From assembly GCA_004138175.2 (NCBI GenBank), contig RYFE02000001.1:124001-188000 (forward strand): a stretch of DNA of 64,000 nucleotides. Direction: 5' to 3'. The translations under genes were made by a program, and so were the position numbers. Positions 43,400 through 49,044 of the stretch are shown here, piece by piece. The stretch's first letter is position 1, and the number at the start of each line of letters is the position of its first letter. The stretch comes from Chloroflexales bacterium ZM16-3 (lineage in GTDB: Bacteria > Chloroflexota > Chloroflexia > Chloroflexales > Chloroflexaceae). The notes beneath the pieces were generated by a model. It worked only from the letters and a program-made list of their open reading frames with translations. It was not told the origin of the DNA and searched no databases.

Positions 43400-44353
43400 T
43401 CACCGGGCGGGTGTCATCGTCGCAGCGAAGTCGTAGGACACGCCGGTGAGCCGCTCGGAGACATCCCAGAGCCGCTGGGCGGTGGCCCCGTCGTAGGAGC
43501 GGGCGCTTGATCGCGCCTTGGCCGGGTAGCCGCGCCAGCCGCCGAAGTCCTTCGGGCCGATGTAGTCGCATCCATAGGCGTCGGGCGAGGTCGCGGCGTA
43601 GAGCGTGGGCAGGGCGCCCATCTCGGCGCTCTGGGCGAAAATCGTATTGGCAAAGCCCATAATCCGCTCGCCGATGGCTGACCCATCCATGCGCGGGCCG
43701 GTCTGCTGAAGGTTGGTGGAGGCATAGCCGGGGTGGCAGCCGAGGCTGATCGCGCTCGCCCCGGCGGCGACGAGGCGGCGGTGCAGCTCGTAGGCGAAGA
43801 GCAGGTTGGCCAGCTTGCTCTGGCTGTAGGCCCGCTGGCGGTCGTAGCCCCGTGCGCCATCCAGGTTCTCAAAGTCGATCACGCCGCTGCGGTGCAGGGC
43901 GCTGCTCACCGTCACCACCCGCGCGCCGGGGGTGGACAGGATGGCCGGCAGGAGCAGGCCGGTGAGCGCGAAGTGGCCCAGGTGGTTTGTGCCAAACTGC
44001 ATCTCGAAGCCGTCGGCCGTCCTACGGAGGGGCAGGGCCATCACCCCGGCGTTGTTGATCAGCAGCGGCAGCAGGTCGTGCCGGGCCAGGAATGCCTCGG
44101 CGAAGCGGCGCACGCTGGCGAGGTCGGCCAGGTCGAGGGCCATCACCTCGACGCTCGCCCCTGGGTGCGCTGTGCGGATGGCTGCGGCGGATGCGCTGGC
44201 CTTCTCCATGCTGCGGGCCGCGATGATCACGCGGGCGCCCTTGCCGGCCAGCACCTTCGCGGCCTCGAAGCCGATCCCGCTGTTGCCCCCGGTGACAATG
44301 GCAAGGTTGCCGCTCTGCTCGGGGATGCGATCTATCGTCCAGTTGTCAGTCAT
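43400..44353 (-). CDS. SDR-family oxidoreductase (retinol-dehydrogenase-like)
   Basis: 317 residues. Cofactor motif TGGNSGIGFEAAKVLA (about 21-36), NNAGVMALP, catalytic YxxxK as YSQSK and the Ser in VTVSSALH are intact. The length and CHPGYASTNLQ resemble the RDH/WWOX-like SDR branch, usually NADP-dependent. The substrate is unknown. It is upstream of enoyl-CoA hydratase; a joint lipid or acyl-CoA role is possible. RBS AGAGGAGC lies upstream of the ATG. Confidence 0.88.
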   Translation of the reverse strand: MTDNWTIDRIPEQSGNLAIVTGGNSGIGFEAAKVLAGKGARVIIAARSMEKASASAAAIRTAHPGASVEVMALDLADLASVRRFAEAFLARHDLLPLLINNAGVMALPLRRTADGFEMQFGTNHLGHFALTGLLLPAILSTPGARVVTVSSALHRSGVIDFENLDGARGYDRQRAYSQSKLANLLFAYELHRRLVAAGASAISLGCHPGYASTNLQQTGPRMDGSAIGERIMGFANTIFAQSAEMGALPTLYAATSPDAYGCDYIGPKDFGGWRGYPAKARSSARSYDGATAQRLWDVSERLTGVSYDFAATMTPAR

Positions 44354-44547: not shown

Positions 44548-47499
44548 TCAGAGTCCCTCTTCATCATCATCTTCAGCATTTGCCGCGCGCACCAGCCGCA
44601 CCGCGCTCACCGCCGTGTCGATCGTCAGGTCGCCGTGGTCGGCGAAGGAGACCAGCATCAGCTCGCGGTCGTCCTCGATCTGGCTTGATCGCACCTCGCC
44701 GGTGCCCCAGGGCATGCAGAAGACCGTGTCGCCCGGCATGAATCGCGGCTCGACCAGCTCGCGCGGGCCTGCGGGCCGGCGTGGGGATGGCGGTGACGAT
44801 GGGCTGCGCCGCTCGCGCTGCTCGCGCATGCTGCGCAGGCGGGCCGCCATCGCCGTCGGGTCGGGCAGCGGCTCGCTCGGCGGAGGCGGCTCCGGCGGGC
44901 GTGGCTCGCTCGGCGGAGGTGGCTCCAGCGGGCGTGGCGTCTGCTTGCCGCGAGGAACTGCCGGAGCCTTATCTGCGGCCTTCTTGCGGCGCGGCTGGGC
45001 AGCTTCACGCGGGGGCTTTGGCTCGGCCGGTGGCGTCTTTCGTGCGGCCGACGGCTCCTTGCGCGGCGGCGTCTCTCGCTTCGGTGTCGCACGTGTCTTT
45101 TGTGGCGGCGGCTCACGCACCGGCTCAGGGATGCTTGGCGGCGTCTCTCGCTTCGGTGTCGCACGTGTCTTTTGTGGCGGTGGCTCACGCACTGGCTCAG
45201 GGGTGATCGGCGGCGCGGGCTCACGTCGCGGCGGCTCAGGGATGCTTGGCGGCGCGGGCTCACGTCGCGGCGGCTCACGCACCGGCTCAGGGATGATCGG
45301 CGAAACTACGTACTGTGGCTTCTCCGGCCTCCGACTCCCATCCCCCGACCCCCGACTTCCAGCCCCCGACTCCCGACTCCTGCCCCCCGACTCCTGCCCC
45401 CCGACTCCCGACTCCTGCCCCCCGACTCCTGCCCCCCGTCCCGCCGGCTGACGGATCGGCTTGGGCGTGATCGCGCCACCGAGCAGCGCCAGCAGCCAGT
45501 CCATATCGGCGCGGGCCAGCGGCTCTAGCAGCGGGTCGCTGCGACAGTCGAGGGCGATGTCGTAGGCCAGCGGCAGCAACTCCTCGATGCCCGTATAGAG
45601 CCATGCGGCCAGGCCATTCCCGCCGGGCTGGGCGTCCACCATATAGATCCGCCGGGCCTCGGCGTCATAGGCCGGCACGGCATCGGTCAGCGTGAGGAGC
45701 GTGCGCACCGCGACGGCCGCCGCCATCGACCAGCCGATGAGCTGGCCGGTGGCCCCCACCGCCATGGGCAGATCGACCCACGCCGCCGGCGCGCTCCAGC
45801 TCGTGGTAAGTGCTGGCGTCAGAACGCGATCCAGCGGCGCGCCGCCGGGGCTCACCTCGCGATAGCCGTAGACTTCCTCGTCGACCACCACCCGGCCCCA
45901 TGCCACCTCCCGCCCGCGCAGATCGCGGCGCTCGCGGCAATCACGCACGCGCACCGTGCAGCGCCTCAGCGGGAAGGTGCGTCTGCCCTCGCTGGCGGCG
46001 CGGATCGTCAGGCTCAGCTCGCCCTCGTCGCGCTCGATCACCCGGTAGCCGCCGCGCAGGGGCGGCAGGGCTGCGCCGGGGAAGGCCCAGCGGTCGAATG
46101 CCGCCGGGTCAAGGGCGACCAGGGCGCGCCCCTGGTCGTCCAGGATGATCGGCGGGGAGGCACCCGCCGCATGCAGGTCAAAGCCCTCGTAGGGGTCGCC
46201 GCCGCCAGGGAGCGGCTGCCAGGCCGGATCGGCCTCGGGGAGCGGAGCGATCTGCTGGTGCGCCTCTAGGCGAGCGATAATCGACCCGGCCTGCCAGGCA
46301 TCCACCTCTGCGGCGCTGATCGGGCGCTCGCTGGCGGCGCAGATCAGGTGCTGAGCGACCACGTAGGCATTGGCGGGCGCGGCGACCCATGCTGGCGGCG
46401 GGTCATCGAGCATCGGCAGGTGGGCGGGGTCGCGGGCGCAGAGCCGGGTGATCGTCCGCTCGGCAGGCTCGTCGCCGAGCAGCAGGATGCTCAGGGCCGC
46501 CCCGCTCTCGGTGGCCTCGTGGAGGGCCGCCGCGCCGCAGGCCGCCCCGGCCAGGATCTGCACCTGTGCGATCTGTGCGCCAGCGCTCACGCTCACCTGG
46601 GCCGTGTCGGGGCCGAGGAGCGCGCGCAGCAGGGGCACCTCCAAGGGCAGGCACACGATATGGACGCTCGCGCCGGCCCGCTGCATGCCCAGCGCCAGGG
46701 CCACCGCCTCGCGGGCGCGGTCGCCGGTAGGCCGCCAGAGGGCCAGGCTCGACGCGGGGCGCGGCAGATCATCTACGGCGATCATCCGCCATGGGCGGCC
46801 CGCCACCTGGGACAGCACATCTGCCGCATCCTGAGCCTCGGCCATGGTCGCGCCGAGGAAGGGCGGCGGATCGGTCGGGGCGAGCCGCTGGGCGCGCAGG
46901 AGCAGCGATGAGAGGTGACCGGCGGCCACCCCAGCGTAGCGGTGGACGTCGGCGATCAGAATCAGCTGGAGGTGCGACCAGAACCCATGCCATGCCCGGT
47001 CGTGGTGGCGCAGCAGCCGCTCGTGGAGGGCGGATGGCGTGGCGGCCACCAGGCGCGCGCCAAACGCGGCCCGCAGACCGTCGCCCTGAGCCGCCGCAAC
47101 ACGTAGGGGCGTTGCGAGGGCCGCCTCCAGGTGCTTCAGATCACTGAGGTGCCTGGCGACGCTGTCAGCCTCGGGGGCGATCAGGAGCGCCGTGCCATGC
47201 GGTTCGCCGCGCAGCAGCTCGAAGGCCAGCAGGTGCAGAGTCTGCCGCGCCGCCGGCCCGCCGCCCACGAGGGCGAAGGGTTCGCCTCGGCGCAGGGCCG
47301 AGAGCGAGAGCGACTGGTGCTGACGGAAGGGCTGTCCGGTGAGCGAGATCCATGCCTGTGAGAGCCGCTGGCTGATCGGCAGGTGGCTGATGCGGCTGCC
47401 TGCGCGCTCGGGTATGGCACGCAGGGCAAGCAACGGGCTTGCGTCGCCACGCCCGCGCTGCCGGGCCAGGTTGTGGAGCGCCTCGATGAGATCGGCCAT
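44548..47499 (-). CDS. Degenerate MrfA/YprA-like DEAD helicase with proline-rich tail and Tudor-like C-terminus
   Basis: 983 residues. The order of landmarks follows MrfA/YprA helicases: VAATPSALHERLL for TNPDMLH (about 151-163), ANAYVVAQHLICAASERP for the DPxNPYVLxxHLxCAAxExP segment, VYGYREV and WVDLP. The ATPase motifs are lost. Walker A reads GGGPAARQT (79-87, no GKS/T), motif II reads IADVHRY (about 182-188) instead of DExH, and motif III reads GAT (about 216). A low-complexity tail (about 690-900) holds two 24-residue repeats and heptad-encoded GGQESG-type repeats. The last 55 residues (GDTVFCMPWGTGEVRSSQI...) resemble the UvrD/PcrA C-terminal Tudor-like domain. It probably acts as a non-catalytic DNA-binding scaffold. 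Confidence 0.6.
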   Translation of the reverse strand: MADLIEALHNLARQRGRGDASPLLALRAIPERAGSRISHLPISQRLSQAWISLTGQPFRQHQSLSLSALRRGEPFALVGGGPAARQTLHLLAFELLRGEPHGTALLIAPEADSVARHLSDLKHLEAALATPLRVAAAQGDGLRAAFGARLVAATPSALHERLLRHHDRAWHGFWSHLQLILIADVHRYAGVAAGHLSSLLLRAQRLAPTDPPPFLGATMAEAQDAADVLSQVAGRPWRMIAVDDLPRPASSLALWRPTGDRAREAVALALGMQRAGASVHIVCLPLEVPLLRALLGPDTAQVSVSAGAQIAQVQILAGAACGAAALHEATESGAALSILLLGDEPAERTITRLCARDPAHLPMLDDPPPAWVAAPANAYVVAQHLICAASERPISAAEVDAWQAGSIIARLEAHQQIAPLPEADPAWQPLPGGGDPYEGFDLHAAGASPPIILDDQGRALVALDPAAFDRWAFPGAALPPLRGGYRVIERDEGELSLTIRAASEGRRTFPLRRCTVRVRDCRERRDLRGREVAWGRVVVDEEVYGYREVSPGGAPLDRVLTPALTTSWSAPAAWVDLPMAVGATGQLIGWSMAAAVAVRTLLTLTDAVPAYDAEARRIYMVDAQPGGNGLAAWLYTGIEELLPLAYDIALDCRSDPLLEPLARADMDWLLALLGGAITPKPIRQPAGRGAGVGGQESGVGGQESGGRSRESGAGSRGSGDGSRRPEKPQYVVSPIIPEPVREPPRREPAPPSIPEPPRREPAPPITPEPVREPPPQKTRATPKRETPPSIPEPVREPPPQKTRATPKRETPPRKEPSAARKTPPAEPKPPREAAQPRRKKAADKAPAVPRGKQTPRPLEPPPPSEPRPPEPPPPSEPLPDPTAMAARLRSMREQRERRSPSSPPSPRRPAGPRELVEPRFMPGDTVFCMPWGTGEVRSSQIEDDRELMLVSFADHGDLTIDTAVSAVRLVRAANAEDDDEEGL
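45071..45208. repeat. 72-bp tandem duplication in the helicase-like gene
   Basis: Two near-identical blocks with a 72-nt period encode KTRATPKRETPP-containing 24-residue repeats in the tail. Adjacent proline-rich repeats (REPAPP) are related. Confidence 0.75.
45345..45439. repeat. Heptad array (units CCGACTC and CTGCCCC) inside a coding region
   Basis: About thirteen 7-nt units alternate CCGACTC and CTGCCCC. Three units equal 21 nt, so the reading frame is kept and the array encodes repeats such as GVGGQESG on the minus strand. Only one arm is present. Confidence 0.8.
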
Positions 47500-47923: not shown

Positions 47924-48003
47924 CCAAAACGGCAGGGCTGGTGTGATCATCCGCACTACCTTGGCCTCCCGTGCTATACTCTGGGCAGCCCAGCAGTATA
48001 GTG

Positions 48004-49044
48004 ATGACGAGCCCCACCATGACCCACCCGACTGGCGGCATCAAGCGCAGCTCCTGGCTGACCTTCAGGCGACGGCTTCTGCTGGTGCGCATGCTGATGC
48101 GCGGCCCGGCTGGCAGCGCTGATCTGGTGGCCGCCATCAACCGCGAGCTAGGCGCGCAGGGCTACCCCGAGGCTGCTGCTGCCGCCCTCAAGCACGATTT
48201 CGACTCGCTCAAGAGCGAGTACGGCTGCCGGATTAGCTACAACCGGGCCACGCGTCGCTACGCACTGGAAGATATGGGCGAGCTGGCGCTGCTCGACCTG
48301 CCGGACGAAAGCATGGAGGCGCTGTCCTTCCTTGACGCCAGCTTTCCCGAGGGAGGCGGGCTGCCCGAGCACGCCAATATCCGCAACCTGCTGGAGCGGG
48401 TGCTGCTCCTGCTTCCGCCGGCCCGCCAAGCCCAACACCGTCGGCAGCGCGGCTCTATGCGCTTGGGCATTGGCTCTGGGTCGGCCAAGATCGACCCGCA
48501 GACGCTCGATGTGGTCAAGCGGGCGATCTCCGGGCGGCGCGAGCTGTCCTTCGCCTACCTGAGCAGCTTCGATGGCGACCAGCCTCGCCAGCACCGCGTC
48601 GCCCCCTACGGCATCACCTTCCGGCCCGAGGGCCAGGGCTACCTTGATGCGACTCTGCTGGAGGTGACGCCGAGGGGCGGCGAGACCATCCGCGCCGCGA
48701 TCGACTATCGCCTCGACCGGATCGTGCCGGGGAGCGCGACGGTGCTGCCGACCATGCTCCCGCCGCAGCGCGCGCTGCCGCTAAGCTACCGCCTGCGCTA
48801 CACCTTGGTGCCGCAGGTGGCCCGCCGCCGCGACCTCGCCGCCGTCTTTCCCAATACCCAGATTGTCTACCGGGACGACGGCAGCGCCGAGGTGACGGCC
48901 GAGGTGACGAACCTCTGGCAGGCCCGCCAGCTGCTGCTGCGCTACGGCGACGCCTGCACCGTCCACGAGCCGCCCGAGCTGGTCGAGCTCTTCCGCAAGA
49001 CGGCGCGTGGCCTGGCCGAGATCTACGGGCTACCGCCTGCGTAG
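48004..49044 (+). CDS. WYL-domain transcriptional regulator
   Basis: 346 residues. An N-terminal winged-helix region (about 15-90; FRRRLLLVRMLMRG, FDSLKSEYGCRISYN) is followed by a WYL domain (about 165-250; ISGRRELSFAYLSSFDG..QHRVAPYGITFRPEGQGYLDATLLE) and a C-terminal extension. WYL regulators sense nucleotides or nucleic acid and often control defence or repair genes. A TATACT box at 47975-47980 lies just upstream. The neighbours are a helicase-like gene (divergent) and a nucleotidyltransferase island, which fits a mobile or defence setting, though no complete system is recognised. Confidence 0.82.
   Translation: MTSPTMTHPTGGIKRSSWLTFRRRLLLVRMLMRGPAGSADLVAAINRELGAQGYPEAAAAALKHDFDSLKSEYGCRISYNRATRRYALEDMGELALLDLPDESMEALSFLDASFPEGGGLPEHANIRNLLERVLLLLPPARQAQHRRQRGSMRLGIGSGSAKIDPQTLDVVKRAISGRRELSFAYLSSFDGDQPRQHRVAPYGITFRPEGQGYLDATLLEVTPRGGETIRAAIDYRLDRIVPGSATVLPTMLPPQRALPLSYRLRYTLVPQVARRRDLAAVFPNTQIVYRDDGSAEVTAEVTNLWQARQLLLRYGDACTVHEPPELVELFRKTARGLAEIYGLPPA

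Follow-up and report, generated by a model that had tools for sequence, protein, structure and literature searches.

Mfd combines a catalytically dead, helicase-like UvrB-like module and a Tudor-like RNA polymerase (RNAP)-interaction domain (RID) in one protein. Pseudo-helicases are also known from other bacteria, a precedent being the Deinococcus PriA pseudohelicase, which keeps DNA binding and partner binding (PMC4504706). Innovation within the YprA family of helicases has likewise been surveyed (PMC12458937); Tudor domains are not mentioned in the main text of that survey, and in its relevant passages the term 'inactivated' refers to nucleases and a CnuB homologue. RNAP binding by PcrA is severely impaired when H681, W684, K712 or L714 is mutated (PMC5397179). 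A search of the open-access literature returned no description of an order-wide inactive MrfA joined to a PcrA-type Tudor domain, which subscription papers may mention, and no account of an inactive Chloroflexus helicase with a Tudor domain or of DUF1998 in Chloroflexi. Here we describe such a gene in the window, by which we mean the whole 64,000-nucleotide stretch of DNA that was analysed.

The gene, its surroundings and the fold of the body

The source genome (6.27 Mb, listed as 100% complete) has Oscillochloris as its nearest named relatives. The start codon of the gene is backed by two relatives (L009, L017), in which the N-terminus likewise reads MADLIEAL.

44548..47499, (-): full pseudo-helicase coding sequence (983 aa), from its ATG at 47499 to its stop at 44548
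47971-49044, (+): WYL-domain regulator, one neighbour
43400-44353, (-): short-chain dehydrogenase, the other neighbour

Neither the WYL regulator nor the dehydrogenase is kept beside the pseudo-helicase gene in the loci compared, and the flanks compared across Chloroflexales hold no conserved gene neighbourhood; flanks are shared in one small genome group alone (L059, L066, L067, L075). As neighbours differ even within the genus, an operon-based guess at function was dropped. The mrfB/yprB exonuclease gene is not adjacent, the sole RNase_H_2 match in the genome lying more than 100 kb off on the contig. A location typical of a defence operon was not seen either, since conserved neighbours are lacking and the gene is not patchy in the order (59/60 genomes). 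A defence-system protein of the DISARM, Dpd or Druantia type was rejected, PADLOC having returned one weak match (SngC, E 5e-4).

The profile, an AlphaFold model and structural comparison agree that residues 1-680 form a complete MrfA/YprA fold. With the single sequence the match to MrfA was weak (E 2.6e-10), WHD_HRQ1 and MZB were both sub-threshold, and TIGR03817 DECH_helic scored 106.9 bits, below its curated cut-off of 874.1. A body profile built from a 51-sequence alignment matched the solved MrfA (6znp) over both halves with an E value of 1.7e-46, and Pfam detected MZB in 50 and WHD_HRQ1 in 49 of the 51 members. The body model (pLDDT 94.4, pTM 0.93) had MrfA as its best PDB match in Foldseek (E 4.3e-40) and was aligned by VIA to 6znp with a Z of 32.8 over 599 residues (rmsd 6.4), the next structural families, Lhr (Z 23.8) and Hel308 (Z 23.6), standing well below. 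Comparison with 6zns, an entry titled without DNA, gave an rmsd of 3.5 over 570 residues; the high whole-chain rmsd of the model suggests a domain movement relative to the DNA-bound MrfA crystals. By fold and by descent the protein is a full-length member of the MrfA/YprA family, winged-helix domain (WHD) and DUF1998 canopy included. The preliminary description had recognised this framework, and had offered the absence of any helicase fold from residues 70-480 as the result that should overturn it; the profile search was run, and the MrfA match in both halves, together with the structural Z of 32.8, upheld the assignment. The N-terminal region (NTR) below is named after the family survey (PMC12458937).

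47380..47499, (-): N-terminal region, residues 1-40, the counterpart of the MrfA NTR; the VIA alignment with 6znq begins at residue 1, and the boundary is approximate
46765..47379, (-): RecA1-like domain, residues 41-245; MrfA 6znp profile, pLDDT 91-98, boundaries approximate
46384..46764, (-): shortened RecA2-like domain, residues 246-372, with motif VI (GRAGR) deleted
46240..46383, (-): winged-helix-like region, residues 373-420, where conservation is highest; Pfam WHD_HRQ1 in 49/51
45700..46239, (-): OB and connector beta-sheet 'canopy', residues 421-600; 6znp profile and structure, boundaries approximate
45460..45699, (-): MZB/DUF1998-like domain, residues 601-680, without the four-cysteine Zn loop; Pfam MZB in 50/51

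Residues N377, A388, A389, E391 and P393 of the winged-helix-like region are invariant.

Catalytic motifs, descent and selection

Motifs were compared between 56 aligned family members, this protein included, and five active paralogues, in which they read TATASGKT, DEAH, SAT, QxxGRAGR and CPC..GCPSC.

47239..47265, (-): degenerate Walker A, residues 79-87, reading GGGPAARQT where active MrfA has TATASGKT; lysine in 0/56
46942..46953, (-): degenerate motif II, residues 183-186, reading ADVH where active MrfA has DEAH; first aspartate in 0/56
46846..46854, (-): degenerate motif III, GAT, residues 216-218, from the motif alignment

The glutamate of motif II is retained in just 6/56 family members. 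The GRAGR of motif VI is a gap in 55-56 of the 56, with its Gly-Arg deleted, and the distance from motif III to motif VI is 108-111 aa in the four members measured, versus 162-165 aa in the active paralogues. The C-x-C...C-x-x-C Zn loop of MZB/DUF1998 is a gap in all 56. The features of an active helicase, namely the Walker A lysine, DExH and the motif VI arginines, are consequently absent together with the four-cysteine Zn cluster. The degenerate Walker A, motif II and motif III had been located correctly in the preliminary description, and the losses recur throughout the 56 aligned members, well above anything chance would give; that account had missed the deletions of motif VI and the Zn loop and the shortening of RecA2 by about 50 residues. 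A sequencing or frameshift artefact behind the odd motifs was rejected, given the identical losses in the 56 members.

A second residue comparison set the pseudo-helicases against 24 active-type proteins. Among the positions invariant in these 24, 61 are lost in the pseudo-helicases, some of them in motifs Ia, Ib, IV and V, whose residues contact nucleic acid in SF2 helicases. Of the positions common to the active and dead groups, 23 in all, most belong to the WHD, motif Ib, the DUF1998 GG loop or the RecA1 helix that follows motif II. The body is acidic, with a median net charge of -10 versus -1 in active relatives. Judged from the missing residues, the pseudo-helicase would not hydrolyse ATP. 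Degenerate P-loops occasionally bind nucleotide, and the protein may bind nucleotide without hydrolysis. Loss of the four-cysteine Zn cluster is likewise reported for Dpd-type YprA homologues (PMC12458937).

The pseudo-helicase was found in 40/41 genomes of the family and in 59 of the 60 sampled Chloroflexales genomes. When 115 genomes of the class were searched with the profile, the best match per Chloroflexales genome scored 376-974 bits, except in the fragmented assemblies G001 and G019, and the best match outside the order reached 121.6 bits within the class and 149.8 bits within the phylum. The last of these (G238) was rejected as a pseudo-helicase, being an active-type MrfA with GKT, DELH, GRVGR and the cysteine cluster. 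The other homologues examined, 26 in number, all keep motif VI and all lack the Tudor pattern; outside Chloroflexales only ATPase-competent MrfA-type helicases were seen. In a quick tree with flagged long branches, of which only this split is relied on, all 51 pseudo-helicases fall on one side of a branch with an SH-aLRT of 100. The dN/dS of the body (0.14-0.24) indicates purifying selection; that of the Tudor domain is 0.19-0.62, from just 58-60 codons. Twenty columns are invariant in the 51-sequence alignment. Active-type MrfA (E below 1e-100) occurs in only 15/60 genomes of the order and is absent from the source genome, so the pseudo-helicase works without it. The pseudo-helicase has a single origin, is retained across the order under purifying selection and is independent of active MrfA. 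The preliminary description had judged the gene probably functional from its long, intact frame, a view that gains strength from this order-wide conservation and a dN/dS of about 0.2.

Linker, Tudor domain and candidate partners

44749..45444, (-): Pro/Arg-rich low-complexity linker, residues 686-917; net charge +17, tandem repeats in part
44566..44748, (-): PcrA/UvrD-type Tudor domain, residues 918-978; five-stranded barrel, from Foldseek and a 42-member alignment

The linker measures 104-831 aa in relatives; in one Chloroflexales clade (L092 880-5562, L069 3267-7163) the body-to-Tudor distance extends up to 566-831 aa. Many relatives' contigs end within the linker, perhaps because of its tandem repeats. 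The GGQESG/SRESG part (window 45324-45438) is encoded by a C-rich, CCGACTCCCGACTCCTGCC-like tandem repeat, and the translation of this repeat also finds matches at about 20 further genomic sites (L002-L008), some with in-frame stops; the coding linker has apparently taken up a dispersed simple repeat. In Oscillochloris sp. ZM17-4 the gene is split into L011 8001-9668 (residues 1-556) and L018 8001-8558 (residues 788-979), the two halves lying about 25 kb apart on the same scaffold in an order impossible by simple insertion. Faulty scaffolding at the repeat-rich linker is the probable cause, a real rearrangement the alternative.

Detection of the Tudor domain required a profile and a model, as the single-sequence search against the PDB gave no match. 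In Foldseek the model retrieved PcrA/UvrD Tudor chains at ranks 1-7 (best E 2.6e-3, target TM 0.82), with a chromo domain, CarD and Mfd in lower rows. VIA gave a Z of 7.9 against 5dma, a level that common folds also reach, so the assignment by this method rests on all four top rows being PcrA/UvrD. The closest fold to the five-stranded barrel is accordingly the PcrA/UvrD Tudor, which agrees with the UvrD/PcrA-like end on a proline/basic linker proposed in the preliminary description. The Tudor profile returned CarD at E 0.013 and UvrD at E 0.32, neither significant alone; Pfam PF21196 matched 10/42 members at E up to 1 (best 0.0016), and the query Tudor itself matched DUF3553 alone (E 0.006). 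The source genome encodes two PcrA/UvrD-type helicases with Tudor ends, L106 (C47) and L107 (C55), the latter being much the closer: local alignment to its Tudor scored 55, against 20.6 +/- 4.1 for shuffles (maximum 44 of 500), although the similarity stops before the last strands. The L106 Tudor did not score above shuffles.

G923, C928, P930, G932 and G934 are invariant in the 42-member Tudor alignment, and the domain is acidic (median pI 4.8). The PcrA residues were placed on it by our own mapping through the shared pattern. The equivalent of W684 is Tyr/Trp/Phe in 39/42 members (His in 3) and that of L714 is Ile/Val/Leu in 42/42; the equivalent of H681 is Cys and that of K712 Leu/Ile/Val, each in 42/42, so that the PcrA RNAP-binding set is incomplete. 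By this mapping the Tudor fold and half of the PcrA interface are kept, with the two basic/polar anchors gone. The polymerase binding put forward in the preliminary description is a tentative proposal, its aromatic and hydrophobic positions being kept and the histidine and lysine lost. The most diverged members (L063, L096; small-genome genus of f4) have a Tudor that is barely recognisable, at 31.7-49 bits; near motif III they carry a SATP/TATP stretch, and they are possibly drifting further.

We consider it likely that Chloroflexales keep this MrfA/YprA-type pseudo-helicase as a non-motor scaffold that is docked to a partner through its Tudor domain. The RecA domains would have lost ATP hydrolysis, a state fixed once in the Chloroflexales ancestor. 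The rigid RecA-WHD-OB-canopy body would be tethered by the long, disordered Pro/Arg-rich linker to the PcrA/UvrD-type Tudor, which in turn would dock the protein onto a partner in the transcription or repair machinery, with RNAP as the leading candidate and UvrB as the alternative. RNAP comes first as the target of the bacterial domains that match best (PcrA/UvrD, CarD, Mfd), and by this analogy it is a plausible partner; the partner is perhaps a different one, because two of the four PcrA RNAP-binding residues are replaced in all members and the Tudor is acidic. The Tudor fold would also fit UvrB or another protein. The fuller picture of an order-specific, near-universal transcription/repair scaffold, made of a frozen MrfA and a PcrA-type Tudor whose partner surface was rewired (an invariant Cys and hydrophobics for His and Lys), has in our view not quite an even chance of being right.

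A sharper version of the scaffold reading makes the protein an RNAP-bound factor of transcription or transcription-coupled repair, its Tudor binding RNAP beta in the PcrA/UvrD or CarD/Mfd manner and its dead body touching nucleic acid near the exit channels. We hold this only tentatively. The top-ranking structures (7egs being UvrD on the RNAP lobe), the CarD and UvrD profile matches and the retained aromatic and hydrophobic positions all point that way, as does the similar long disordered linker that carries the PcrA Tudor (PMC8318588), but RNAP shares this Tudor face with UvrB and other proteins (PMC8318588), the H681 and K712 equivalents are replaced throughout, and both PcrA/UvrD Tudors of the source genome show, by eye, Arg and Lys near that place.

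Rather unlikely, though nearly as well placed, is an ATP-independent DNA-binding protein that senses damage or junctions like Deinococcus PriA, with binding by the WHD, OB canopy and basic linker (+17). The WHD and parts of motif Ib and the RecA1 helix (H195, R202, R205) are indeed conserved in active and dead proteins, whereas motifs Ia, Ib, IV and V have lost canonically invariant SF2 nucleic-acid contacts. These losses and the acidic body weaken the DNA-binding scaffold that the preliminary description had also offered.

A role as accessory partner of an active helicase in a heteromer, like that of DrmB with DrmA in DISARM or of AddB/RecC with their active partners, is improbable. YprA-family canopy modules act in trans in DISARM (PMC12458937), and the source genome has three helicase-like open frames of 1.7-1.9 kaa; yet active MrfA was not found in 45/60 genomes of an order in which 59/60 have the pseudo-helicase, no neighbouring helicase is conserved, and SngC was a weak match in the defence library. 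The three frames (contigs C77, C68 and C46; L019-L021) span 1734-1886 aa with DEAH-helicase-like matches and are possibly large YprA-family or other SF2 helicases. A decaying pseudogene without function, as the loss of all catalytic motifs might suggest, is refuted by the conservation data and can hardly be entertained, since the frame is intact in the relatives aligned, 59/60 genomes keep the gene, dN/dS is about 0.2 and 20 columns are invariant in 51 sequences.

Chloroflexales thus appear to have made a non-motor scaffold out of a helicase motor. The persistence of a pseudo-enzyme across a whole order shows that its fold serves some purpose other than catalysis, and the MrfA family's WHD and OB-DUF1998 canopy, together with a transplanted docking domain, become open to study without the motor. 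As an order-wide protein of filamentous, partly phototrophic bacteria, the pseudo-helicase is a promising candidate for a component of transcription or repair particular to this lineage.

Comparison with known systems

To our knowledge, Deinococcus radiodurans PriA has no Tudor domain. It resembles the pseudo-helicase in that its helicase motifs were lost lineage-wide, with binding functions retained in PriA (PMC4504706), and differs in deriving from another helicase family. With MrfA/YprA (6znp, 6znq, 6zns) the pseudo-helicase shares the N-terminal region, RecA1, RecA2, WHD, OB, connector sheet and DUF1998 canopy; unlike MrfA it is without ATPase motifs, has a RecA2 about 50 aa shorter and a deleted Zn-Cys loop, carries the extra linker and Tudor domain and has no mrfB alongside. 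Five strands, a long disordered linker and the aromatic and hydrophobic interface positions are common to its Tudor and those of PcrA/UvrD (5dma, 7egs, 9dqs). Its Tudor sits on an SF2 pseudo-helicase rather than an SF1 helicase, and the His and Lys needed for RNAP binding have become Cys and Leu/Ile/Val. The pseudo-helicase is like Mfd in joining a dead helicase-like module to a Tudor-like domain, whereas Mfd also has an active translocase, and its dead module comes from UvrB, not MrfA.
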